NCBI GenBank assembly: GCA_009908425.1
Contig: JAAAPF010000339.1
Coordinates: 1-41,312 of the forward strand
DNA length: 41,312 nt
Direction of reading: 5' to 3'
Source: Alphaproteobacteria bacterium
GTDB lineage: Bacteria > Pseudomonadota > Alphaproteobacteria > Geminicoccales > Geminicoccaceae
The notes beneath the pieces are model-generated. The model did no database searches and was not told where the DNA came from. It saw nothing but the letters and a program-made list of their open reading frames with translations. Positions 25,486-41,312 of this stretch are shown piece by piece; the stretch's first letter is position 1, and every line of letters starts with the position of its first letter. Both the position numbers and the translations under genes were made by a program.

Positions 25486-27213
25486 TCAGGGCATCCGGAC
25501 GTAGCGGCCGGGGGCGGGCTCCAGCGGCGGAAAGCCTTCGGCGCCCAGCGCCGGCGGCGCGGTCCAGTCGCCGCTGTGCTCGTGCAGCCAGGCGAACCAC
25601 GCCGGCCACCACGAGCCGTCGCGCTGCTCGGCCTGCTCGGCCCAGGCCTCGGGCGGGACGTAGGGCGCGTCCTCGGGGGCGTGGCCGACGCGGTAGCTGG
25701 CCTTGGGGTTGCCCGGGGCGGCGACGATGCCGGTGTTGTGGCCGCCCGAGGCGAGGGCGAAGGTGAAGTCGACCACGGTCAACAGCCGCACCTTGTAGAC
25801 CGAGACCCAGGGCGCGATGTGGTCGCGCTCGGTGCCGACCGCGAACAGCGGCGCGCGCAGGTCGGTCAAGGCCACCGGCCGCCCCTCGACCGCGTAGCGC
25901 CCGCGCGACAGCCGGTTGTCGAGGAACAGGTCGCGCAGGTACTGGGTGTGCATCTTGGCCGGCATGCGGGTGCCGTCGGCGTTCCAGGCCATCATGTCGG
26001 AGACGGGCGAGCGCCGCCCCAGCAGGTACTCGCGCACCATCCGCGACCAGATCAGCTCATGGCTGCGCAGAAGTTGAAAGGCCCCGGCCATCTGCGCGCT
26101 GTCGAGATAGCCCTGGTCCCACATCATGTCCTCGAGATAGGCGAGCTCGCTCTCGTCGATGAAGACCATGAGCTCGCCGGCCTCGGAGAAGTCGGTCTGG
26201 CCGGCCAAAAGCGTGATCGACTGCAGGCGGTGGTCGCCGTCGCGGGCCATGGCGGCGGCGGCGATGGCCAGAAGGGTGCCGCCGAGACAGTAGCCGCAGC
26301 CGTGGATCTTGCGATCCGGCACCACCCGCTCGACCATGTCGAGCGCCGCCATGACCCCGGCGCGGCGGTAGTCCCCGAGGCTGAGATCGGCGTCGCCGCG
26401 GTCCGGGTTCTTCCACGAGATCGCGAAGACGGTGAAGCCTTCGCCCACCAGGTGGCGGATCAGCGAGTTCTCCGGCTGCAGGTCGAGGATGTAGTACTTC
26501 ATGATCCAGGCCGGCACGATCAGCACCGGCTCGGCCCGGACCTGCTCGGTCGTCGGCTCGTACTGGATGAGCTCGATCAGGTCGTTGCGGTAGACGACGC
26601 GGCCGGGGGTGATCGCCAGGTTGTCGCCGACCCGCCAGTCCTCGGTGCCGGGCTCCGGCCGCCCGGCGAGCAGCCGCTCGACGTCCTCGGCGAAGAGCGC
26701 CGCCCCGCGCGCGAAGTTGGCCCCACCCTCGGCGAAGGTGTGCTCGATCACCTCCGGGTTCGCCCACGGCGTGTTCATCGGCGAGTAGCGGTTGAGGTGT
26801 TGGTTCATCATGAAGTTGACGACGTTGAGGTGCTGGCGCGTCGCGCCGCGGACGTCGCAGGTGGCGGTCTGCCAAAAGCGTTCGAGGGCGAGGAAGTTCT
26901 GGGCGTAGACCACGAACGGCCATTGCTGCCAGGGCTCGTCGTCGAAGCGGTGGCGGCGCGGCTCGGGGAAGGGCCGGGCCGAGGTGTCGAACGCGGCGCG
27001 CTGCGCGAACAGCGCCAGTTGCAGGGCGTCGGCCGCGGCCTGGTTGGCGAGCTCGAGCTGCTTGCCGGGGGCGTTGGCCAGATGGGCGAACCAGTCGCTC
27101 CAGGCGGCGGCCACCGCGGTGGTCGAGATGCCGGCGGTGGCGCGGGCCTGAAAGGCGTGGAGCAGCCGGTCGAGGTTCTCGAAGTGCTTCAGCTCGACGG
27201 GTACGGCGGGCAC
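25486..27213 (-). CDS. phaC: Class I poly(3-hydroxyalkanoate) synthase
   Basis: Polymerises 3-hydroxyacyl-CoA into PHA storage granules. With the start used here the product is 575 aa, close to the usual class I length. The N-terminal domain is followed by an alpha/beta-hydrolase core with the lipase-like box GYCLGG (nucleophile Cys309), Asp464 in TERDHIAPW and His492 in SGGHNTG. I chose GTG 27213 because GAGG lies about seven bases upstream and homology-like sequence begins there (LKHFENLDRLLHAFQ). ATG 27273 or TTG 27285 would add up to 24 unconvincing residues and have no ribosome site. No phaA, phaB or phasin gene is adjacent, and the clpB terminator lies just upstream. Confidence 0.93.
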   Translation of the reverse strand: MPAVPVELKHFENLDRLLHAFQARATAGISTTAVAAAWSDWFAHLANAPGKQLELANQAAADALQLALFAQRAAFDTSARPFPEPRRHRFDDEPWQQWPFVVYAQNFLALERFWQTATCDVRGATRQHLNVVNFMMNQHLNRYSPMNTPWANPEVIEHTFAEGGANFARGAALFAEDVERLLAGRPEPGTEDWRVGDNLAITPGRVVYRNDLIELIQYEPTTEQVRAEPVLIVPAWIMKYYILDLQPENSLIRHLVGEGFTVFAISWKNPDRGDADLSLGDYRRAGVMAALDMVERVVPDRKIHGCGYCLGGTLLAIAAAAMARDGDHRLQSITLLAGQTDFSEAGELMVFIDESELAYLEDMMWDQGYLDSAQMAGAFQLLRSHELIWSRMVREYLLGRRSPVSDMMAWNADGTRMPAKMHTQYLRDLFLDNRLSRGRYAVEGRPVALTDLRAPLFAVGTERDHIAPWVSVYKVRLLTVVDFTFALASGGHNTGIVAAPGNPKASYRVGHAPEDAPYVPPEAWAEQAEQRDGSWWPAWFAWLHEHSGDWTAPPALGAEGFPPLEPAPGRYVRMP

Positions 27214-27303
27214 GGTGGCGACCTCGCGGCAGAGTAGGGCGGGACCCTCCCGCGCCCGCGCACCGCCGTCCATGACGGGGGTCAACGGCGGCGCGTGCAG
27301 CGC

Positions 27304-27335
27304 AAAAAAAAAGCGGCCGGCACGGGGCCGGCCGC
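27304..27335 (-). terminator. Intrinsic terminator of clpB
   Basis: On the minus strand a 9-bp perfect stem (27335-27327 with 27321-27313), a 5-base loop and a run of nine T residues (27312-27304), starting 30 bases after the clpB stop. This is the clearest rho-independent terminator in the window. Confidence 0.92.
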
Positions 27336-27364
27336 CCGCGGGCGGGCGGCGCCCGCCGCTCGGC

Positions 27365-29962
<2,598 letters not shown>

Positions 29963-30037
29963 CGCGTCTCTCCTGGCTCCCGTGGCGGCGAGCGCTCGCG
30001 CCGGACCCGCGTGCGGCATCCGGGCGGCACGCGGGAG

Positions 30038-30066
30038 ATATGGGCAGCGATCGGTCGCTGCACAAG
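30038..30066 (-). promoter_or_regulatory. RpoH (sigma-32)-type heat-shock promoter for clpB
   Basis: On the minus strand CTTG (30066-30063), an 18-base spacer, then CCCATAT (30044-30038). This fits the heat-shock pattern CTTG ... CCCATAT and lies about 75 bases before the clpB ATG, a classic RpoH target. The -35 lies inside a 23-base inverted repeat. Confidence 0.7.
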
Positions 30067-30078
30067 AATTGTGCAGCG
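30056..30078. repeat. Perfect 10-bp inverted repeat over the clpB -35 element
   Basis: CGCTGCACAA (30056-30065), spacer GAA, TTGTGCAGCG (30069-30078). It starts directly after the GST stop codon and covers the CTTG of the clpB promoter. It could act as the GST 3' hairpin, as a regulator site, or both. It is not a CIRCE (HrcA) element. No T-run follows. Confidence 0.7.
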
Positions 30079-30702
30079 CTATGTGGGCGCCGACGGCGTC
30101 AACGCGTCGTCGAGCGCCTGCGCCCGGCGGTAGGCGTCGCGGTCGCGCACCCGCTCGGCGTACTCCACCAACTCCCGGCGGCGCGGCAGCGTGCCGAATT
30201 CCAGCCCCCAGCCGATCTGTGCGCCCACATAGACGTCGGCGGCGCTGAACGCGTCCCCGCCGAGGTAGGGCCCGTCCGAGACGGCGGCGACCAGCGCGTC
30301 CACCACCCGCTCGAGCGAGCCGTAGCCCAGCATGCCCTGCTGCCGCGGGTCGTCGGTGGTGAAGCCCATCGCCTGGTTCGTCGTCGCCGCCTCCACCGGC
30401 CCGGCCCCGAAAAAGAGCCAGCGGTAGTAGGCGGCGCGCTCGGTCGGGGGCGGGGCGAGGCCGGCGGCGGGGAAGGCGTCGGCGAGATAGGCGCAGATCG
30501 CGCCGCATTCGGTGACGACCCGCGCCCCGTGGGTCAGTGTCGGGACCTTGCCCATCGGGTTCAGCGCGCGATAGGAGGCGCTCTGCATCTCGGGGCCGTA
30601 GGCGAGGGCGACCGTCTCGTAAGGCGCGCCGACCTCCTCCAGCATCCAGCGGGCGATGCGGCCGCGCGACATCGGGTTCGTGTAGAGGACGAGATCCGCC
30701 AT
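30079..30702 (-). CDS. Glutathione S-transferase family protein
   Basis: A 207-aa cytosolic GST-like enzyme. The N-terminal thioredoxin-fold domain is MADLVLYTNPMSRGRIARWM, with the substrate loop NPMGKVPTL and the glutathione gamma-glutamyl contact region TECGAICAYLAD. A C-terminal helical domain has FSAADVYVGAQIGW. The N-terminal Ser in NPMSRGR is the likely catalytic or activating residue (beta/nu-like). GGGAGAG precedes ATG 30702. It is downstream of the GhrA-like gene by 32 bases and probably co-transcribed with it. Substrate unknown. Confidence 0.88.
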   Translation of the reverse strand: MADLVLYTNPMSRGRIARWMLEEVGAPYETVALAYGPEMQSASYRALNPMGKVPTLTHGARVVTECGAICAYLADAFPAAGLAPPPTERAAYYRWLFFGAGPVEAATTNQAMGFTTDDPRQQGMLGYGSLERVVDALVAAVSDGPYLGGDAFSAADVYVGAQIGWGLEFGTLPRRRELVEYAERVRDRDAYRRAQALDDALTPSAPT

Positions 30703-32104: not shown

Positions 32105-32368
32105 ATGAGCATCGATAGACAGGCCGGGGACGCCTATTGGCGAGCGAACATCCGCTTGGTGCGGACGTTGCTCGTGATCTGGGCGCTCGTGTCCTACGGC
32201 TTCGGTATCCTGTTTCGGCCGCTGCTGTCGGGGATCCCGATCGGGGGTACCGATCTGGGCTTTTGGTTCGCGCAGCAGGGCTCGATCCTGACCTTTCTGA
32301 TCCTGATCTTCTTCTACGCGATCCGGATGAACCAGCTCGACCGCCAGTTCGGCGTCGACGAGGAGTGA
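32105..32368 (+). CDS. DUF4212 small membrane subunit of a sodium:solute symporter
   Basis: An 87-aa protein with two membrane helices (about 20-42 and 55-75), starting MSIDRQAGDAYWRANIRLV and ending with MNQLDRQFGVDEE, the usual DUF4212 layout. Proteins of this family are almost always encoded just before a VC_2705-type symporter and are thought to act as its accessory subunit. Here the symporter starts 10 bases later. The ATG follows CAGGAAAGG. Confidence 0.9.
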   Translation: MSIDRQAGDAYWRANIRLVRTLLVIWALVSYGFGILFRPLLSGIPIGGTDLGFWFAQQGSILTFLILIFFYAIRMNQLDRQFGVDEE

Positions 32369-32378
32369 GGGGCCAGCC

Positions 32379-34166
32379 ATGGACCAGCAAACCCTGATCT
32401 ACCTCGTCGTCGGCGCCACCTTCGCGCTCTACATCGGTATCGCCATCTGGTCGCGGGCGGGGTCGACCGGCGAGTTCTACGCCGCCGGCCGCGGCGTTCA
32501 CCCGGTCGCCAACGGCATGGCGACGGCGGCCGACTGGATGTCGGCGGCGTCCTTCATCTCGATGGCCGGCCTCATCGCCTTCGCCGGCTACTCCGCCTCC
32601 GCCTTTTTGATGGGCTGGACCGGCGGCTACGTGCTCCTGGCGCTGCTGCTCGCGCCGTACTTGCGCAAGTTCGGCAAGTTCACCGTGCCCGAGTTCATCG
32701 GCGAGCGCTTCTACTCGCAGACGGCGCGCGTCGTCGCGGTGATCGCGCTGCTCGTCGCCTCCATCACCTACGTCATCGGCCAGATGACCGGCGTCGGCGT
32801 CACCTTCTCGCGCTTTCTCGAGGTCAACGCGACCGTCGGCCTGCTGATCGGCGCCGCCATCGTCTTCGTCTACGCGGTGCTGGGCGGGATGAAGGGCATC
32901 ACCTACACCCAGGTCGCGCAGTACATCGTGCTGATCACCGCCTACACCATCCCGGCGGTGTTCATCTCGTTGCAGCTCACCGGCGTCGCCATCCCGCCCC
33001 TGGGCTTGTGGGCCGAGCACACCGACTCCGGCATGCCGCTGCTGGCGCGGCTGAACGAGGTCATCACCGATCTCGGCTTCGCCAACTACACCGAGCATCA
33101 GGGCAGCACGCTGAACATGCTGCTGTTCACGCTGTCGTTGATGATCGGCACGGCCGGCCTGCCGCACGTCATCATCCGCTTCTTCACCGTGCCGCGGGTG
33201 GCGGACGCGCGCTGGTCCGCCGGCTGGGCGCTCGTCTTCATCGCGCTGTTGTACCTCACCGCCCCGGCGGTGGCCGCGATGGCGCGCCTCAACCTCGTCG
33301 ACACGGTGCAGATGAACCCGGTCGGCACGCCCGACCAGCCCACCTTTATCCAGTACGAGGATCGGCCGGACTGGATGCGCACCTGGGAAGTCACCGGTCT
33401 CGTCCAGTGGGACGACAAGAACGACGACGGCCGCATCCAGTACTACAACGAAGACAACGTCGAGTTCGCCCGCCAGGCGGAAGAGCGGTTCGGCTGGGCC
33501 GGCAACGAGCTCACCGTGAACCGCGACATCATGGTGCTCGCCAACCCGGAGATCGCCAGCCTGCCGAACTGGGTCGTGGCCATCGTGGCGGCCGGCGGTC
33601 TCGCCGCGGCGTTGTCGACGGCGGCCGGCCTCTTGCTCGCGATCTCGTCCGCGGTCAGCCACGACCTCATCAAGGGGGCGATCAACCCGCGCATCTCGGA
33701 GCGGGGTGAGCTGCTGGCGGCGCGGGTATCGATGGCGGGTGCGATCGTGCTGGCGACCTATCTCGGCTTGAATCCGCCCGGCTTCGCCGCCCAGACGGTC
33801 GCCCTCGCCTTCGGCCTCGCCGCCTCTTCGATCTTCCCGGCGATCATGATGGGCATCTTCGTCAAGCGCATCAACAACGCCGGGGCGGTGGCGGGCATGC
33901 TTTCCGGCCTCATCTTCACCGTCGTCTACATCTTCGTGTACAAAGGCTGGTTCTTCATCCCCGACACCAACATGCTCGAGGATACCGCCGAGTTCTGGGT
34001 GTTCGGGATCTCGCCGCTGTCGATCGGGGCGGTCGGTGCCGCGCTGAACTTCCTGGTCGCCTACGTCGTCTCCAACGTGACGGAGGCCCCGCCGGAGGAG
34101 ATCCAGGATCTCGTCGAGAGCATCCGCGTCCCGCGGGCGACCCAGGCGCCCGGTGGCGACGACTGA
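32379..34166 (+). CDS. Sodium:solute symporter, VC_2705 family (ActP-like)
   Basis: A 595-aa SSS-family carrier for acetate or another small organic acid. About 13 hydrophobic segments are visible. N-terminal landmarks are STGEFYAAGRGVHPVANGMA and ATAADWMSAASFISMAGLIA, the sodium-binding region. A large hydrophilic loop (about 305-390) contains an EF-hand-like stretch DKNDDGRI (346-353); I recall this loop as a trait of the VC_2705 branch. The C-terminus is soluble. GGGGC lies upstream of the ATG. In Vibrio-type loci the same DUF4212-symporter-DUF294 set is tied to acetate uptake, so acetate is the first guess; substrate proof is lacking. Confidence 0.9.
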   Translation: MDQQTLIYLVVGATFALYIGIAIWSRAGSTGEFYAAGRGVHPVANGMATAADWMSAASFISMAGLIAFAGYSASAFLMGWTGGYVLLALLLAPYLRKFGKFTVPEFIGERFYSQTARVVAVIALLVASITYVIGQMTGVGVTFSRFLEVNATVGLLIGAAIVFVYAVLGGMKGITYTQVAQYIVLITAYTIPAVFISLQLTGVAIPPLGLWAEHTDSGMPLLARLNEVITDLGFANYTEHQGSTLNMLLFTLSLMIGTAGLPHVIIRFFTVPRVADARWSAGWALVFIALLYLTAPAVAAMARLNLVDTVQMNPVGTPDQPTFIQYEDRPDWMRTWEVTGLVQWDDKNDDGRIQYYNEDNVEFARQAEERFGWAGNELTVNRDIMVLANPEIASLPNWVVAIVAAGGLAAALSTAAGLLLAISSAVSHDLIKGAINPRISERGELLAARVSMAGAIVLATYLGLNPPGFAAQTVALAFGLAASSIFPAIMMGIFVKRINNAGAVAGMLSGLIFTVVYIFVYKGWFFIPDTNMLEDTAEFWVFGISPLSIGAVGAALNFLVAYVVSNVTEAPPEEIQDLVESIRVPRATQAPGGDD

Positions 34167-34261: not shown

Positions 34262-36112
34262 ATGGATGCCCCCCGCGACGTCTTCCGTCGTTTCTTCGCC
34301 CAACATCACCCCTTCGACGTGCTGCCGGCGGAGGCCGTCGAGCGCCTGCTCGACCACACCTCCCAGATCGAGGTCCCGACCGACGGCGTCATCCACGAGA
34401 TCGGCGAGCTGCCCGCTCACCTCTACGTCGTGCGCAACGGCGCGGTCGACGTGGTGACGCCCGAGGGCGTCGTCGTCGAGCACCGCGGCATGGGCGAGGG
34501 CGTCGGCGCGCGGGCGATACTGCGCGGCGAGGCGTCGCCCAACCGCGCCGTCGCCCACCGCTCGGCGACGCTGTTGCGCATCCCGCGCGGGCTGTTCACC
34601 GAGCTGGTCGAGGCCTATCCCGACTTCGCGGCTTATTACGAGCGCCTGAAGGCCCTCGGCGCCCGCCGCCCGGCGGCGATGTCGACCGAGCCCGGCGAGG
34701 CGGTGATCTCGAGCCCGCTGCGCGAGGTCATGACCGCCGACCCCGTCGTCGTCGCCCCCGACGCCACCGTCCGCGACGCGGCGACGTGGATGCGCGACCG
34801 CCGCATCTCCTGCGTGCTGGTGGAGGACGGCGGGCGCCTGGTCGGCATCGTCACCACCAACGACCTCGCCCGCCGGGTGGTCGCCGCCGGCCGCGGCGCC
34901 GACGTGCCGGTGCGCGAGGTGATGTCCGCGGAGCCCGCGGCGCTGCCGCCGGACACCCTCTTTTTCGACGCCATGCTGGTGATGAGCGAGCGCGACATCG
35001 GCCATCTGCCGGTGGTGGAGCAGGGCCGGGCCGTCGGTATCGTCACCCGCACCAACATGATCCGCCGGCAGTCCACCTCCAGCGTCTTCATGATCGGCGA
35101 CATCGCCAAGCGCGAGCACCTCGACGAGCTCGCCGCGATCATCGGCCAGCTGCCGCAGCTGCTGGTCCAGCTCGTCGGCGCCGGGGTCACCCCCAAACGG
35201 GTCGGCCAGGTCGTCACCAGCGTCGCCGACGCGCTCACCCGTCGGCTGTTGCAGCTCGCCGAGGTCCAGCTCGGGCCGCCGCCGGTCGACTATCTGTGGC
35301 TGGTCTGCGGCTCCCAGGGCCGCCAGGAGCAGACCGGGATCTCCGATCAGGACAACTGCCTGATCCTCGCCGACGACTACGACGCCACCGCGCACGGCGA
35401 ATACTTCGAGCGCCTGGCGCGCTACGTCTGCGACGGCCTCGACGCCTGCGGCTACTACTACTGCCCCGGCGAGATGATGGCGACCAACGACCAGTGGCGC
35501 CAGCCGCTGCAGGTCTGGCGCGGCTATTTCCAACGCTGGATCGCCAAGCCCGATCCGAAGGCCCAGATGCTGGCCAGCGTGATGTTCGATCTGCGTCCCG
35601 TCGCCGGCGACCTGCGCTTGTTCGAGGGGCTCAAGCACGAGACGGTGCAGGCGGCGCGCAAGAACAGCATCTTCCGCGCCCACCTGGTGGCGAACTCGCT
35701 CGGCCACCAGCCGCCCTTGAGCCTGCTCAGGGGCTTCGCGCTGATCCGTTCCGGCGAGCACAAGGACAAGGTCGACCTCAAGCTCAACGGCGTCGTGCCG
35801 ATCGTCGACCTCGCCCGGGTCTACGGCCTCGATGCCGGCCGCGAGGAGGTCAACACCCGCGACCGCATCCTCGCCGCCAAGGAGGCGGGCAGCCTCAGCG
35901 CCTCCGGCGCCGACGACCTCGCCGACGCCTACGACACCATCGCCCGGGTCCGGCTCGAGCATCAGGCCAAGCAGGTGCGCCGCGGCGAGAAGCCGGACAA
36001 CTTCATGGCGCCGTCGAGCCTGTCGGCGCTCGAGCGCGGCCATCTGCGCGACGCCTTCGGGGTGGTGAAGTCGCTGCAGGCGGCCCTGGCGCACTACCGC
36101 AGCGCTACCTAG
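34262..36112 (+). CDS. cNMP/CBS/DUF294 putative nucleotidyltransferase
   Basis: A 616-aa cytoplasmic regulator. A cyclic-nucleotide-binding-like domain (about 15-130) precedes two CBS motifs (about 150-205 and 212-268; VMTADPVVVAPDATVRDAA and VMSAEPAALPPDTLF). A DUF294 nucleotidyltransferase domain (about 300-440) has CGSQGRQEQTGISDQDN, giving the metal Asp362 and Asp364. A DUF294 C-terminal domain (about 475-612) follows. The order resembles GlnD-like uridylyltransferases fused to sensor domains. A partner in this neighbourhood could be the symporter or the signalling pair. All catalytic landmarks are intact. Confidence 0.9.
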   Translation: MDAPRDVFRRFFAQHHPFDVLPAEAVERLLDHTSQIEVPTDGVIHEIGELPAHLYVVRNGAVDVVTPEGVVVEHRGMGEGVGARAILRGEASPNRAVAHRSATLLRIPRGLFTELVEAYPDFAAYYERLKALGARRPAAMSTEPGEAVISSPLREVMTADPVVVAPDATVRDAATWMRDRRISCVLVEDGGRLVGIVTTNDLARRVVAAGRGADVPVREVMSAEPAALPPDTLFFDAMLVMSERDIGHLPVVEQGRAVGIVTRTNMIRRQSTSSVFMIGDIAKREHLDELAAIIGQLPQLLVQLVGAGVTPKRVGQVVTSVADALTRRLLQLAEVQLGPPPVDYLWLVCGSQGRQEQTGISDQDNCLILADDYDATAHGEYFERLARYVCDGLDACGYYYCPGEMMATNDQWRQPLQVWRGYFQRWIAKPDPKAQMLASVMFDLRPVAGDLRLFEGLKHETVQAARKNSIFRAHLVANSLGHQPPLSLLRGFALIRSGEHKDKVDLKLNGVVPIVDLARVYGLDAGREEVNTRDRILAAKEAGSLSASGADDLADAYDTIARVRLEHQAKQVRRGEKPDNFMAPSSLSALERGHLRDAFGVVKSLQAALAHYRSAT

Positions 36113-36121
36113 GGGCGGGAC

Positions 36122-36673
36122 TTGAGCTTTTTTCTCCTGTTCGGGGCGATCGCGCTCGGTCTGGGCACCGCCGGCGTCGCCATGCTGGCCTGGCGCGTCA
36201 CCGGCCGGCGCGCGCCGCGCTGGGCACCGCCGTTGGCCGGCGGGCTCGCGATGATGAGCTTCTACGTCTGGATGGAGTACGCCTGGTTCCAGCGGGTCTC
36301 GAACCAGCTCTCCGAGCGCGTCGTCGTGGTCGAAACCCACAGCCGCAGCGTGTGGTGGCAGCCCTGGTCGCTCCTCCGCCCCCAGGTCGTGCGCTTCAGC
36401 GCCATCGATCGGGCGAGCGTGGAGCCCGTCGGCCGGGAGCTCGTGCGCCTCGAGCTCTGGCTGGTCGACCGCTACACCGGCTCGGCGCAGGTGAGCCAGA
36501 TCTACGACTGCAGCGAACCGCGCCGCCTCGACGTCGCCGCCGACACCCGCTTCGACGACGCCGGCCGCCCGGTCGACGGCGACTGGCGCCGCGTCCCCCC
36601 GGCCGAGCCGCACCGGCGGGTGGCGTGCCGGCTGGCCGAACGCCCGGTCGACGACGCCGTCGTACCCGGCTGA
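36122..36673 (+). CDS. Hypothetical inner-membrane protein, 183 aa
   Basis: Two N-terminal membrane helices (about 2-22 and 36-55) and a soluble domain of about 120 residues with VVVVETHSRSVWWQPWSLLRPQVVRFSAID and DRYTGSAQVSQIYDCSEPRR. The likely start is TTG 36122, nine bases after the DUF294 stop. A MMSFYVWMEYAWFQRVSNQ stretch near the second helix seems characteristic. I do not recognise the family. Position in the symporter/DUF294 locus suggests a membrane partner. Confidence 0.65.
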   Translation: MSFFLLFGAIALGLGTAGVAMLAWRVTGRRAPRWAPPLAGGLAMMSFYVWMEYAWFQRVSNQLSERVVVVETHSRSVWWQPWSLLRPQVVRFSAIDRASVEPVGRELVRLELWLVDRYTGSAQVSQIYDCSEPRRLDVAADTRFDDAGRPVDGDWRRVPPAEPHRRVACRLAERPVDDAVVPG

Positions 36674-36783: not shown

Positions 36784-37164
36784 TTGCGATCGCGAGCGGT
36801 GCTGGTCGTCGACGACGAGCCGACCATGCGGTTTTGCCTCGAGCGCCTGCTGCGCGCCGAGGGTTATCAGGTGATGACGGCGGCCGGGCGCAACGACGCC
36901 CTGGCGCGGCTGGCCGAGCGCAGTCCCGACGCCGTTCTCCTCGACGTCGTGCTGGAGGACGGCGACGGCTACGGCTTTCTCGGCACGCTGCGGGAGCGCT
37001 GCGGGCGACCCGAGCTGCCGGTGGTCATGATGAGCGCGCGCACCCGCCCCGACGAGCGCCAGCGGGGCGAGGCCGTCGGCGCCGACGGCTATCTGCGCAA
37101 GCCCTTCGACATCGCCACGCTGAAGCGGGCGCTGGACGGTCTGCTCCCGGTCGCCGAGGCCTGA
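36784..37164 (+). CDS. Receiver-only response regulator
   Basis: A 126-aa single REC domain. Acidic pocket Asp10-Asp11 in LVVDDEPTM, phosphoacceptor Asp54 in AVLLDVVLEDGDGYGF, Ser84 in VVMMSARTR and Lys106 in YLRKPF: all five hallmark residues are present. There is no output domain, so it acts by protein contact (CheY/DivK-like). The start is TTG 36784 behind GGGAGG. It ends 4 bases before the sensor-exonuclease gene, implying a pair, although that protein lacks a recognisable phosphodonor His. Confidence 0.9.
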   Translation: MRSRAVLVVDDEPTMRFCLERLLRAEGYQVMTAAGRNDALARLAERSPDAVLLDVVLEDGDGYGFLGTLRERCGRPELPVVMMSARTRPDERQRGEAVGADGYLRKPFDIATLKRALDGLLPVAEA

Positions 37165-37168
37165 GGCG

Positions 37169-39310
37169 GTGACCCGCTGGAGCCTGCGCCTGCGGATGTT
37201 CCTCTTTTTCGCGCTCATCGCGGTGGGCGCGTTCGTCGCCGTCGGCGTCGGGTTCGCGCTGACCGCCTCGCGCGCCGCCGCCGAGTTGCAGCCGACGCTC
37301 GTGCTCGCCTTCGGCGGCGCCGGCTTCGCCATCGCCGGCCTCGCGCTCTGGGTCTGGCAGCAGTTCGACGAGCACCTCGCCAAGCCCATCCTCGCCATCG
37401 TCCAGCACGTCCGCGCGGTCGTCCACGCCGGCGCCCGCGGCGACGGCCAGGTGCGCTACCGGGCGCGCTATCTGGGCTTTCTGGCGCCGGCGGTGGACGA
37501 GGTGACGACCGCGCTGGAGCGGGCGCGCGCCGAGACCGAGGAGCGCGTCACCAAGGCCACCGCCGAGGCCGACCGCCAGCGGGCGCGCCTCGAGGCGGTG
37601 CTGCGCGATCTCACCGAGGGCGTGATCATCTGCAACCTCGATCACGAGATCCTGCTCTACAACCAGCGCGCCGCGCAAATCCTGCACGACTGCGGCCATC
37701 TCGGCCTGGGCCGGCCGCTGCTCGGCCTGGTCGGCGACGAGCCCTTCCGCTTCGCCCTGGAACGGCTCCGCCGGCGCTTCGTCGAGGACCGCTGGAGCGA
37801 TCACCCCGACGGGCTCACCACCCTCGCCGTGGTCAGCACCCGCCACCGCGGCGCCACCTTGAAGGCGCGGGTGTCGCTGACCCTCGACGCCCAGGGCGGC
37901 AACCCGATGGGCTACGTCATCGCCTTCGACGACGCCACCGAGGAGATCGAGCACGCCGCCCGACGCGATCGGCTGCTGCACGACGGCGCCGAGGAGGTCC
38001 GGCGGCGGGTGAGCGACGTGCTCGGCCTGAGCGAGCTGGCGCTGCGCGGCGGCGGCGAGGACGCCGCCGACCGCGACACCCTCGCGCGCGAGCTCGCGCG
38101 CGCCCGCGGCTCGTTGTCGGCGGCGCTCGACCAGCTCGACACGGTCACCCGCGACGAGCACGCCACGCCCTGGCCGACCGCGCCGATCTACGCCTCGACG
38201 CTGATCGCCTTTCTGGGCGACCGCGTGGCCGGGACCTGCGCGCTCAACACCGCGCAGATCCCGAGCGATCTGTGGGTGCGCTGCGACGGCGCCACCATGC
38301 TCGCGCTGCTGGAGCACCTGGTACGCCATCTCGCGGTCGATCGGCGGGTCCATCAGGTGCTGGTGGAGATGCGGGCGAGCCCCCACCGGGTGGTGCTCGA
38401 TCTGGTCTGGCACGGCCAGACGCTCCGCGAGCGCGAGCTCGACGCCTGGCTCGACGAGTCGCTCGGGCCGGGCTTCGCCGGGCTCACCGCCCGCGAGGTC
38501 CTGGAGCGCCACAAGACCGCGCTGTGGTCGGTGGCGCGCCGACGCGAGGAGGTCGCGCTGCGCCTGCCCTTGGCGCGCGGCGAGCCCGCCGGCCGCCGGC
38601 CGCGCACGACCGCGCCGACCGTCTCCGCCCGCCCCGAGTTCTACGACTTCGATCTGTTCGCGCGGCGCGGCCGCAGCGCGCTCACCGACGCCGCCCTGCG
38701 CCAGCTGACCTACGTCGTCTTCGACACCGAAACGACCGGGCTCGAGCCCCAGGGCGACGACGAGATCATCTCCATCGGCGCCGTCCGCATCGTCAACGCC
38801 CGGGTGCTCACCGGCGAGAGCTTCGATCGCTTCGTCCATCCCGGCCGCCGCATCCCGCCGGCCTCGACCCGGGTCCACGGCATCTCGGACGACCAGGTCA
38901 AGACGGCGCCGCCGCTCGACGCCGTCGTCCCCGACTTCCACGCCTATGTCGGTGACGCCGTCCTGGTGGCGCACAACGCCGCTTTCGACATGAGCTTTTT
39001 GAGCAAGCACCAGCGCCGGCTCGGCCTCGCTTTCAGCCAGCCGGTGCTCGACACCGTGTTGCTGGCGGCGCACGTTCTCGGCCCGGGCGAGCGGCTCACC
39101 CTGGATGCGCTGGTGGAACGTTTCGAGATCGAGTTGCCGGCGCACGAGCGCCACACCGCCCTGGGCGACGCCCGCGCCACCGCCTACGTCTTCTTGCGGC
39201 TGATCGCGCTGTTGGAGGCCGACGGCACCCGCACCCTGGGCGACGCCCTGCGCGTCTCCGAACAGCAGGTCGCCCTGCGCCGCCGCCAGAGCGCCTACCA
39301 GTCCGGCTGA
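37169..39310 (+). CDS. Membrane PAS/degenerate-kinase protein fused to a DEDDh 3'-5' exonuclease
   Basis: A 713-aa protein starting at GTG 37169. Two membrane helices (about 10-32 and 42-63) are followed by a HAMP-like coiled region (65-140). A PAS domain spans about 140-262 (VLRDLTEGVIICNLDHEIL). A kinase-like region (265-470) lacks a clear H-box and has no Asn/Gly ATP boxes; where an N-box is expected it reads LEHLVRHLAV. The C-terminal DnaQ-like exonuclease (510-680) has Asp519 and Glu521 in FDTETTG, Asp607 in HNAAFDMSFL, and His662 and Asp667 in HTALGDA, a full DEDDh set. It sits 4 bases after the receiver protein. It could degrade DNA, RNA or a nucleotide signal. Similar proteins are often labelled Pol III epsilon. 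Confidence 0.88.
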   Translation: MTRWSLRLRMFLFFALIAVGAFVAVGVGFALTASRAAAELQPTLVLAFGGAGFAIAGLALWVWQQFDEHLAKPILAIVQHVRAVVHAGARGDGQVRYRARYLGFLAPAVDEVTTALERARAETEERVTKATAEADRQRARLEAVLRDLTEGVIICNLDHEILLYNQRAAQILHDCGHLGLGRPLLGLVGDEPFRFALERLRRRFVEDRWSDHPDGLTTLAVVSTRHRGATLKARVSLTLDAQGGNPMGYVIAFDDATEEIEHAARRDRLLHDGAEEVRRRVSDVLGLSELALRGGGEDAADRDTLARELARARGSLSAALDQLDTVTRDEHATPWPTAPIYASTLIAFLGDRVAGTCALNTAQIPSDLWVRCDGATMLALLEHLVRHLAVDRRVHQVLVEMRASPHRVVLDLVWHGQTLRERELDAWLDESLGPGFAGLTAREVLERHKTALWSVARRREEVALRLPLARGEPAGRRPRTTAPTVSARPEFYDFDLFARRGRSALTDAALRQLTYVVFDTETTGLEPQGDDEIISIGAVRIVNARVLTGESFDRFVHPGRRIPPASTRVHGISDDQVKTAPPLDAVVPDFHAYVGDAVLVAHNAAFDMSFLSKHQRRLGLAFSQPVLDTVLLAAHVLGPGERLTLDALVERFEIELPAHERHTALGDARATAYVFLRLIALLEADGTRTLGDALRVSEQQVALRRRQSAYQSG

Positions 39311-39870: not shown

Positions 39871-41004
39871 TCAGCCCGGGCTGAGCGTGGCGATGAAGTA
39901 GCCGGCCACGACCGCGGTGCCGATGACGCCCGCCACGTTGGGGCCCATGGCGTGCATCAACAGGAAGTTCGAGGGATCGGCGCGGACCCCCTCGACCTGC
40001 GACACGCGCGCGGCCATCGGCACCGCCGAGACCCCGGCGGAGCCGATCAGCGGGTTGATCTTCTGGCGGCTGAACAGGTTCATACCCTTCGCCATCAGCA
40101 CGCCGCAGGCGGTGGAAATGCCGAACGCGACGATGCCCAGGGCGAGGATGGCGAGGGTCTCGATGTTCAAGAAGCGCTCGCCGGTCATGGTGATGCCCAC
40201 CGAGGTGCCGAGGAAGATCGTCACGGCGTTGATGATCTCGTTCTGCGCCGCCTTGGACAGGCGCTCGACCACCCCGCATTCGCGCAAGAGGTTGCCGAGC
40301 ATCAGCATGCCGACCAGCGGCGACGCGGCGGGCACGAGCAGGATGACGATGACGGTCACGATCAGCGCGAAGGCGAGCTTCTCGACCCGGCCGACCTGGC
40401 GCAGCGAGGTCATCTTGATCTTGCGCTCGTGCTCGGTCGTGAGCGCGCGCATGATCGGCGGCTGCAGGAGCGGCACCAGCGCCATGTAGGAGTAGGCCGC
40501 CACGGCGATGGGGGCGAGCAGCTCCGGCGCCAGGGCGTTGGCGAGGAAGATCGACGTCGGCCCGTCGGCGCCGCCGATGATGCTGATCGCGCCGGCCTCG
40601 CTCATCGAGAAGCCGATGATGGTGGCGCCGATGACGGTCGCGAAGACGCCGAACTGCGCCGCCGCTCCCAACAGGAAGGTGCGCGGATTGGCGATCACCG
40701 GTCCGAAATCGGTCAGCGCGCCCACCCCCATGAAGATGATCGGCGGGAACAGCTCCAGGTGAATGCCTTGCTGGATGTAGTAGAACAGACCGCCCGGATG
40801 ATCGCCCTCCGGCAGATTGACCACGCCTTGGGTCGGCAGGTTGGCGAGCAGCGCGCCGAAGGCGATCGGCACGAGCAACAGCGGCTCGAAGTTCTTGGCG
40901 ATGGCGAGGTAGAGCAGGACGACGACGACGCCCCACATCACGACCATGCGCCAAGTCACCTCGGTAAAGGCGGTCAGCGCGAACAGCTCGGCGAGCGCGT
41001 CCAT
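39871..41004 (-). CDS. oadB: Sodium-pumping decarboxylase beta subunit
   Basis: Membrane subunit of oxaloacetate or methylmalonyl-CoA decarboxylase that couples decarboxylation of carboxybiotin to Na+ export. The 377-aa product has about 10 hydrophobic segments and the hallmark [17 protein letters not shown] with Asp147, the sodium-site Asp of the family. [16 protein letters not shown] follows, and [19 protein letters not shown]. The C-terminus reads [25 protein letters not shown] precedes ATG 41004. It lies 28 bases after the biotinyl-domain gene. Oxaloacetate, methylmalonyl-CoA and glutaconyl-CoA enzymes share this subunit, so the substrate is not fixed. Confidence 0.93.
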
Positions 41005-41032
41005 CGGCGGCGATCTCCCCCTCGGGCGGCGG

Positions 41033-41312
41033 TCAGTCGATGCTCAACAACACCTGGCCTTCGGAGACCGAGGCGCCGGCCTGCACGGCCACGTTCTTGA
41101 CCGTGCCGGTACGCGACGCGGTCACGGTCGTGTTCATCTTCATCGCCTCCAGCGTCACCACGGGCTGGCCCTGGTTCACCGGGTCGCCGGCCTTGACGTG
41201 CACCTCGACGACGGTGCCGGCGAGCGGGCTCGCCACGTCGCCGAGACCGCCGCCACCGCCGCCGTCGGCGGCCGGTGCCGCCGGCGCCGGCTCGGGGGCC
41301 CGAGCGGCCGGC
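41033..41312 (-). CDS. Biotinyl-domain protein, C-terminal part (5' end outside the window)
   Basis: The frame enters from the right edge and ends at the stop at 41033-41035. The visible 92 codons encode an Ala/Pro linker, a Gly run, then a biotinyl domain beginning [17 protein letters not shown]. The biotin-accepting Lys lies in EAMKM and the domain ends [10 protein letters not shown]. It is either the C-terminus of the carboxyltransferase alpha subunit (OadA) or a separate biotin carrier subunit. The oadB gene directly downstream shows it belongs to the sodium-pump decarboxylase. The GTG in ASPLAG's upstream codon is internal, not a start. Confidence 0.85.

Follow-up and report, generated by a model that had tools for sequence, protein, structure and literature searches.

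A degenerate histidine kinase fused to a DEDDh exonuclease and accompanied by a stand-alone receiver in an alphaproteobacterial operon

The locus and its genes

The window analysed here is a stretch of 41,312 nucleotides from a draft genome of the Geminicoccaceae (assembly GCA_009908425.1, contig JAAAPF010000339.1), and its forward strand carries a run of genes which ends in a membrane sensor joined to an exonuclease. The run opens with a small DUF4212 protein (32105-32368; PF13937, E 3.8e-34), followed by a sodium/solute symporter of the VC_2705 family (32379-34166; TIGR03648, E 4.7e-252), a nucleotidyltransferase-like protein in which Pfam recognises cNMP-binding, CBS, DUF294 and DUF294_C domains in this order (34262-36112), a conserved protein of 183 amino acids (36122-36673), a stand-alone receiver (36784-37164) and finally the fused gene (37169-39310). 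The source genome holds one symporter of the VC_2705 kind. The 183-aa protein has no match in Pfam or NCBIfam; in alphaproteobacterial relatives its gene sits at the same place, between DUF294 and the receiver/exonuclease genes, and it remains there when the receiver is lost. In relatives the operon is preceded by acs. A search upstream of the operon for the ACTU motif of the CrbR type, run with an approximate matrix, returned one loose match only, located inside the symporter gene, and scans for sigma-70 promoters and terminators were empty.

Two further regions of the window lie on the reverse strand. Convergent with the fused gene is a beta subunit of oxaloacetate decarboxylase behind a biotin/lipoyl-carrier domain (39871-41311), which runs past the window end. 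Ahead of the operon, at 25486-30508, are a PhaC-like PHB polymerase of 599 amino acids and a ClpB/ClpA-like frame of 1047 amino acids (Clp_N, AAA, AAA_2); in the latter a long stretch precedes the first Clp_N match, and its start codon is provisional.

The fused gene starts with GTG, 4 nt past the stop codon of the receiver gene, and encodes 713 amino acids in a single frame. The GC content at the third codon position amounts to 0.88-1.00 in each 150-nt window along the gene, the joint between sensor and exonuclease included, so there is no frameshift, and since the full-length fusion recurs in dozens of independent genomes, we reject both a frameshift and an assembly artefact as its origin. 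The preliminary description of this DNA, made from the sequence alone, had placed sensor and exonuclease in one polypeptide and had named a frameshift, with the exonuclease as a separate gene, as the finding that would speak against it; the exonuclease belongs to the same gene. The fusion is present in more than 100 genomes of alpha-, beta- and gammaproteobacteria, Magnetococcia and Nitrospirota, and a full-length copy was also found in a Desulfobulbia bin. One family (f23), which its named locus-bearing members such as Paracoccus and Marivivens suggest to be the Rhodobacterales, holds both forms of about 700 amino acids and forms of about 470 amino acids, in which the PAS domain runs directly into the exonuclease. 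A literature search, in which subscription journals were thinly covered, found no published description of a fused PAS/kinase-like exonuclease.

Domain architecture of the fused protein

The AlphaFold2 model of the whole fused protein (mean pLDDT 86.2, pTM 0.70) places a first transmembrane helix at residues 6-35, a second one continuing into a HAMP-like helix at 38-87, a coil at 105-146, a PAS domain at 150-255, a DHp hairpin at 257-330, a CA-like domain at 338-470, a low-confidence linker at 475-488 and the exonuclease at 514-684. Hydropathy gives hydrophobic segments at about 9-33 and 42-62, in keeping with the two membrane helices proposed earlier, and together with the model and a profile match to the TM-HAMP part of a transducer this sets the helices at residues of about 6-35 and 42-62 (37184-37354, forward strand, as for all parts of the protein given below), with a very short external loop between them. 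Behind them lies a HAMP-like region with a signalling coiled coil (residues 64-146; 37358-37606), recognised by the model helix 105-146 and by a match to the sensory rhodopsin transducer (2f95), obtained for the membrane/HAMP part with a profile restricted to the sensor half. The PAS domain (37616-37933), likewise foreseen, is matched weakly by Pfam in this member, while PAS families appear in 39 of 50 homologs; the family profile matches WalK PAS structures, and the model forms the strands of the domain within 150-255. Positions of the PAS and DHp regions are kept over great evolutionary distance, L163, N165 and G179 being invariant and R278 nearly so.

A profile of the family, built from 75 homologs, matches the VicK-like kinase 4i5s over residues 48-476 (E 3.6e-24), and the kinase-like region is therefore, as judged from profile and model, a true histidine-kinase fold. 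The profile of the sensor half alone also matches 4i5s (E 1.6e-19), 4u7n and DivL (4q20). Searching VIA-align with the whole model listed exonuclease matches only, and the DHp-CA core was then folded and searched alone; modelled in this way (pLDDT 90.7), its CA domain aligns to that of CusS (7zp0) with Z 14.3 and an rmsd of 2.3 over 124 residues. Based on the alignments to 4i5s, 4u7n and DivL and on the model, the DHp hairpin corresponds to 37937-38158; the degenerate, ATPase-like CA domain, delimited by the CusS alignment and by motif counts, corresponds to 38180-38578.

The fold has been kept and its catalytic equipment has been lost. Neither HisKA nor HATPase_c is matched by Pfam in the fused protein, and among 50 homologs HisKA occurs weakly in eight and HATPase_c in none. 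The column of the phospho-accepting His in the 4i5s alignment is occupied by Glu275, and none of the 120 homologs whose DHp hairpin is intact has His there (69 have Glu and 23 Asp); canonical H-, N- and G2-boxes are absent from all 120, with a D.G.G-like string in four. An active histidine kinase is therefore rejected on the missing phospho-His, N-box and G2-box and the lack of a HATPase_c match. The preliminary description had reported a kinase-like region devoid of H-box and ATP-binding motifs and had regarded an intact kinase core as the decisive counter-evidence; the survey extends the former to the entire group, and for the latter profile and structure recover a kinase fold whose catalytic boxes are gone. 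Within the degenerate CA domain W335, W369, W414, W427, H448 and W453 are nearly invariant despite the lost ATP-binding boxes, which may point to a new ligand or to a surface for contacts.

The C-terminal domain (residues 514-684; 38708-39220) is a 3'-5' exonuclease of the DEDDh type, matched by RNase_T of Pfam (E 2.9e-36) and, in the family profile, by the PolC exonuclease 2p1j over residues 506-685 (E 6.3e-50); in VIA-align it fits PolC 9qpc with Z 24.6 and an rmsd of 1.8 over 189 residues, and epsilon with Z 21.3. The complete set of residues, D519, E521, D607, H662 and D667, stands exactly where the preliminary description had put it and is shared by all 165 homologs, also by the truncated ones, so far as sequence can tell a catalytically intact-looking enzyme. 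In the exonuclease tree a branch with an SH-aLRT value of 86 sets the fused domains off from DnaQ and from exonucleases like PP_0353. Homologs carry public names such as 'exonuclease domain-containing protein', '3'-5' exonuclease' and 'DNA polymerase III subunit epsilon', and the earlier warning against an annotation as Pol III epsilon proved apt: one relative is so annotated, the fused exonucleases form a clade of their own, and the source genome has a separate DnaQ-like gene (G000:C246). The fused protein does not reach the epsilon equivalog cut-offs. An anti-phage role was also considered; the PADLOC matches are limited to the exonuclease domain, and the neighbours are metabolic.

The stand-alone receiver and the adjoining kinase

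The receiver encoded directly upstream (126 amino acids; Response_reg, E 7.3e-26) has its phospho-Asp at position 54, with Ser84 and Lys106, and the phospho-Asp, the Lys and the Thr/Ser are invariant in 105 of 105 receivers. At most loci of relatives it is likewise a single domain encoded directly upstream on the same strand, usually no more than some tens of nucleotides ahead of the fused gene. Leaving aside duplicates and loci with less than 450 nt of upstream sequence, it directly precedes the fused gene in 104 of 116 relatives whose DHp hairpin is intact, in none of six members in which the hairpin is shortened and the CA domain kept, and in none of 37 members in which both are deleted, these 37 being essentially one family. 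Two loci with an intact hairpin (L028, L029) have the receiver just downstream, and about ten full-length members with an intact hairpin have no adjoining receiver. At the truncated loci the 183-aa gene and DUF294 are still present, as is the symporter wherever the extracted sequence reaches far enough; the loss of the receiver is therefore specific.

Among 18 genomes of family f23, those with full forms have the receiver orthologue (122-141 bits) at the locus, and genomes with truncated or DHp-shortened forms yielded only weaker receivers elsewhere (88-112 bits); the orthologue appears to be absent from most of the truncated and DHp-shortened genomes checked, a few of these being ambiguous. 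On the exonuclease-only tree the state of the DHp hairpin changes eight times, and over the five supported independent pairs the receiver follows the hairpin in an average of 4.8 and goes against it in none (sign test on the five pairs, p = 0.0625). The stand-alone receiver is a conserved partner of the dead kinase, reported here as new, and we read the DHp hairpin as its predicted docking site; either order of the losses of hairpin and receiver fits this reading.

In Paracoccus denitrificans PD1222 the order of genes is CBS-DUF294, small protein, the kinase PDEN_RS25405 of 901 amino acids, receiver PDEN_RS25410 and fused exonuclease PDEN_RS25415, and the kinase matches HisKA (E 5.1e-21), HATPase_c (E 6.2e-29) and, weakly, SSF. 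Such an SLC5-linked histidine kinase adjoins the fused gene at 47 of the 80 loci. At 30 of these it lies upstream, 28 times at a distance of up to about 510 nt, a gap that mostly corresponds to the receiver gene; at the other 17 it lies downstream, no more than about 415 nt away. All 47 kinases have the H-, N- and G2-boxes. An intact kinase so placed would supply the phosphodonor for the receiver. In the source genome, a draft of 94% completeness, a search for an SLC5-linked kinase gave matches to the kinase core only and none over the SLC5 part.

Interpretation and alternatives

In our view the fused protein represents a genuine variant of two-component signalling, for which the literature covered gave no description. 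The main reading, to which we give a probability of roughly 60%, is that of a signalling effector, in which the kinase core has been turned into a module for receiver docking and a DEDDh 3'-5' exonuclease at the inner membrane serves as output. A signalling pathway had already been suspected from the dead-kinase sensor, the exonuclease and the neighbouring receiver, and it gains substance from the tie of the receiver to the DHp hairpin across many genomes and from the active kinase often adjoining. The likely chain runs from a kinase through the phosphorylated receiver and its dock on the dead kinase to the exonuclease, beside genes of acetate and pyruvate use (acs, the VC_2705-family symporter and CBS-DUF294). 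We infer that an active kinase, in many relatives the adjoining SLC5-linked one of the CrbS/CbrA kind and in the source genome presumably some other kinase, would phosphorylate the stand-alone receiver, and that the receiver, probably in its phosphorylated form, would dock on the DHp hairpin. Docking, together with input from the PAS domain, the HAMP-like region and the membrane, may alter the coiled-coil dimer and switch the exonuclease on or off, and the enzyme would then shorten RNA or DNA from the 3' end, or degrade small nucleotides, close to the machinery for transport and activation of acetate and pyruvate. PAS-exonuclease forms exist which have neither dead kinase nor receiver; the receiver is therefore dispensable for the basic job of the exonuclease. 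The fuller proposal, namely that binding of the phosphorylated receiver to the repurposed kinase core gates the membrane exonuclease and so couples acetate/pyruvate sensing to the turnover of RNA (or DNA), is more tentative and falls a little short of an even chance. In a bolder form, the exonuclease might remove nucleotides added by the neighbouring DUF294 nucleotidyltransferase, the two making a putative write/erase pair.

The same observations could be arranged differently. The dead kinase might be a sink or phosphatase for a receiver that serves another target of the SLC5-linked kinase, the exonuclease being a separate, membrane-tethered activity, and indeed a single-domain receiver could have other targets, PAS-exonuclease forms occur without it, and the loss of the phospho-His (Glu or Asp in 92 of 120) is compatible with a sink that binds receivers. 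However, the receiver gene lies directly upstream of the exonuclease gene and is gone whenever the hairpin is shortened, so that seemingly there is no other essential target of the receiver in those lineages, and we consider this arrangement unlikely. Somewhat less probable still is that the sensor half is a leftover kinase serving as membrane anchor for a constitutive housekeeping nuclease which the receiver does not gate. Some members do lack the DHp-CA core altogether, and PP_0353, a different, stand-alone exonuclease in a similar Pseudomonas operon, works free of any sensor (PMC9927547), but a mere anchor would hardly account for PAS and DHp positions kept over great distance, nor for a receiver link as specific as this one. 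That the protein is an ordinary, membrane-attached epsilon subunit of DNA polymerase III has very little in its favour beyond the resemblance of the exonuclease part to PolC and epsilon and the naming of some records; the separate DnaQ and the distinct clade led us to reject this identity, and the operon consists of transport and signalling genes, not of replication genes.

The signalling-effector reading would have consequences beyond this locus. With few exceptions, the output of two-component systems is transcription, motility or an enzyme of second messengers. If the effector reading is true, a conserved chain of kinase, receiver, pseudokinase and exonuclease, present in several bacterial classes, would link the sensing of metabolites directly to the breakdown of nucleic acids, and would join the examples in which a histidine-kinase core has come to sense a receiver. 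It could likewise help to explain the importance of PP_0353, a distant exonuclease in a similar operon, for growth on pyruvate. Paracoccus denitrificans PD1222 has the whole module together with the active kinase, and the proposal is therefore directly testable.

Comparison with known systems

With the PolC-type exonucleases and DnaQ epsilon the C-terminal domain shares the DEDDh fold and residues, but it stands outside any polymerase, in a clade of its own and with a membrane sensor in front. The order TM-HAMP-PAS-DHp-CA is that of VicK/WalK, which also provide the best matches in sequence (4i5s) and fold (9a5d), whereas the fused protein has lost the catalytic boxes and gained an exonuclease.

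CrbS/R (MxtR/ErdR), CbrA/B and RpuS/R, systems built on SLC5/STAC histidine kinases, serve acetate, C/N balance and pyruvate. The adjoining kinases in 47 of the 80 relatives resemble theirs in the SLC5-like N-terminus and the intact HisKA/HATPase, and the metabolic neighbourhood (acs, symporter) is the same. CrbR, CbrB and RpuR, however, are DNA-binding regulators, while the receiver described here has no output domain and its apparent output is the exonuclease fused to a pseudo-kinase.

In Pseudomonas putida the stand-alone RNase_T exonuclease PP_0353 forms an operon with the CBS protein PP_0354 under the control of MxtR/ErdR; its loss delays growth on pyruvate, not on acetate, and the authors speculate on a function in mRNA decay (PMC9927547). 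Common to both systems is an RNase_T exonuclease in the context of the same kind of CBS-domain protein, but PP_0353 has neither sensor nor receiver. By the likeness of the gene context, as distinct from orthology, the P. putida system supports a probable role of the fused gene's operon in the use of C2/C3 carbon. Orthology with the fused exonuclease is not supported; the PP_0353-like exonucleases branch far off, their exact place being unsure owing to long branches. In two loci from genomes related to a Pseudomonas sagittaria record (L114, L120) a PP_0353-like stand-alone exonuclease, of a different branch from the fused one, directly follows the CBS-DUF294 gene. In two Comamonas loci (L086, 6071-7537; L091, 6539-7543) the usual place of the receiver, here about 130-160 nt ahead of the fused gene, is taken by a second, separate exonuclease related to PP_0353.

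The closest parallel for the proposed docking is DivL of Caulobacter, a repurposed kinase which binds phosphorylated DivK via a receiver-docking interface (PMC4211667). Both proteins combine a PAS domain with a kinase core devoid of the phospho-His and are genetically tied to a stand-alone receiver, an association which in the fused family depends on the DHp hairpin, as the adjacency counts and the tree test indicate; the DHp-CA core matches DivL 4q20 in profile (E 1.2e-8) and in fold (Z 13.3, rmsd 15.9 over 193 residues). Unlike in DivL, the phospho-His has mostly been replaced by Glu or Asp and not by Tyr, and DivL, whose target is a further kinase, CckA, has nothing beyond its kinase core, whereas in the fused protein this core is followed by a DEDDh exonuclease. 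The predicted docking step, judged by this analogy, resembles that of DivK and DivL; the output does not.
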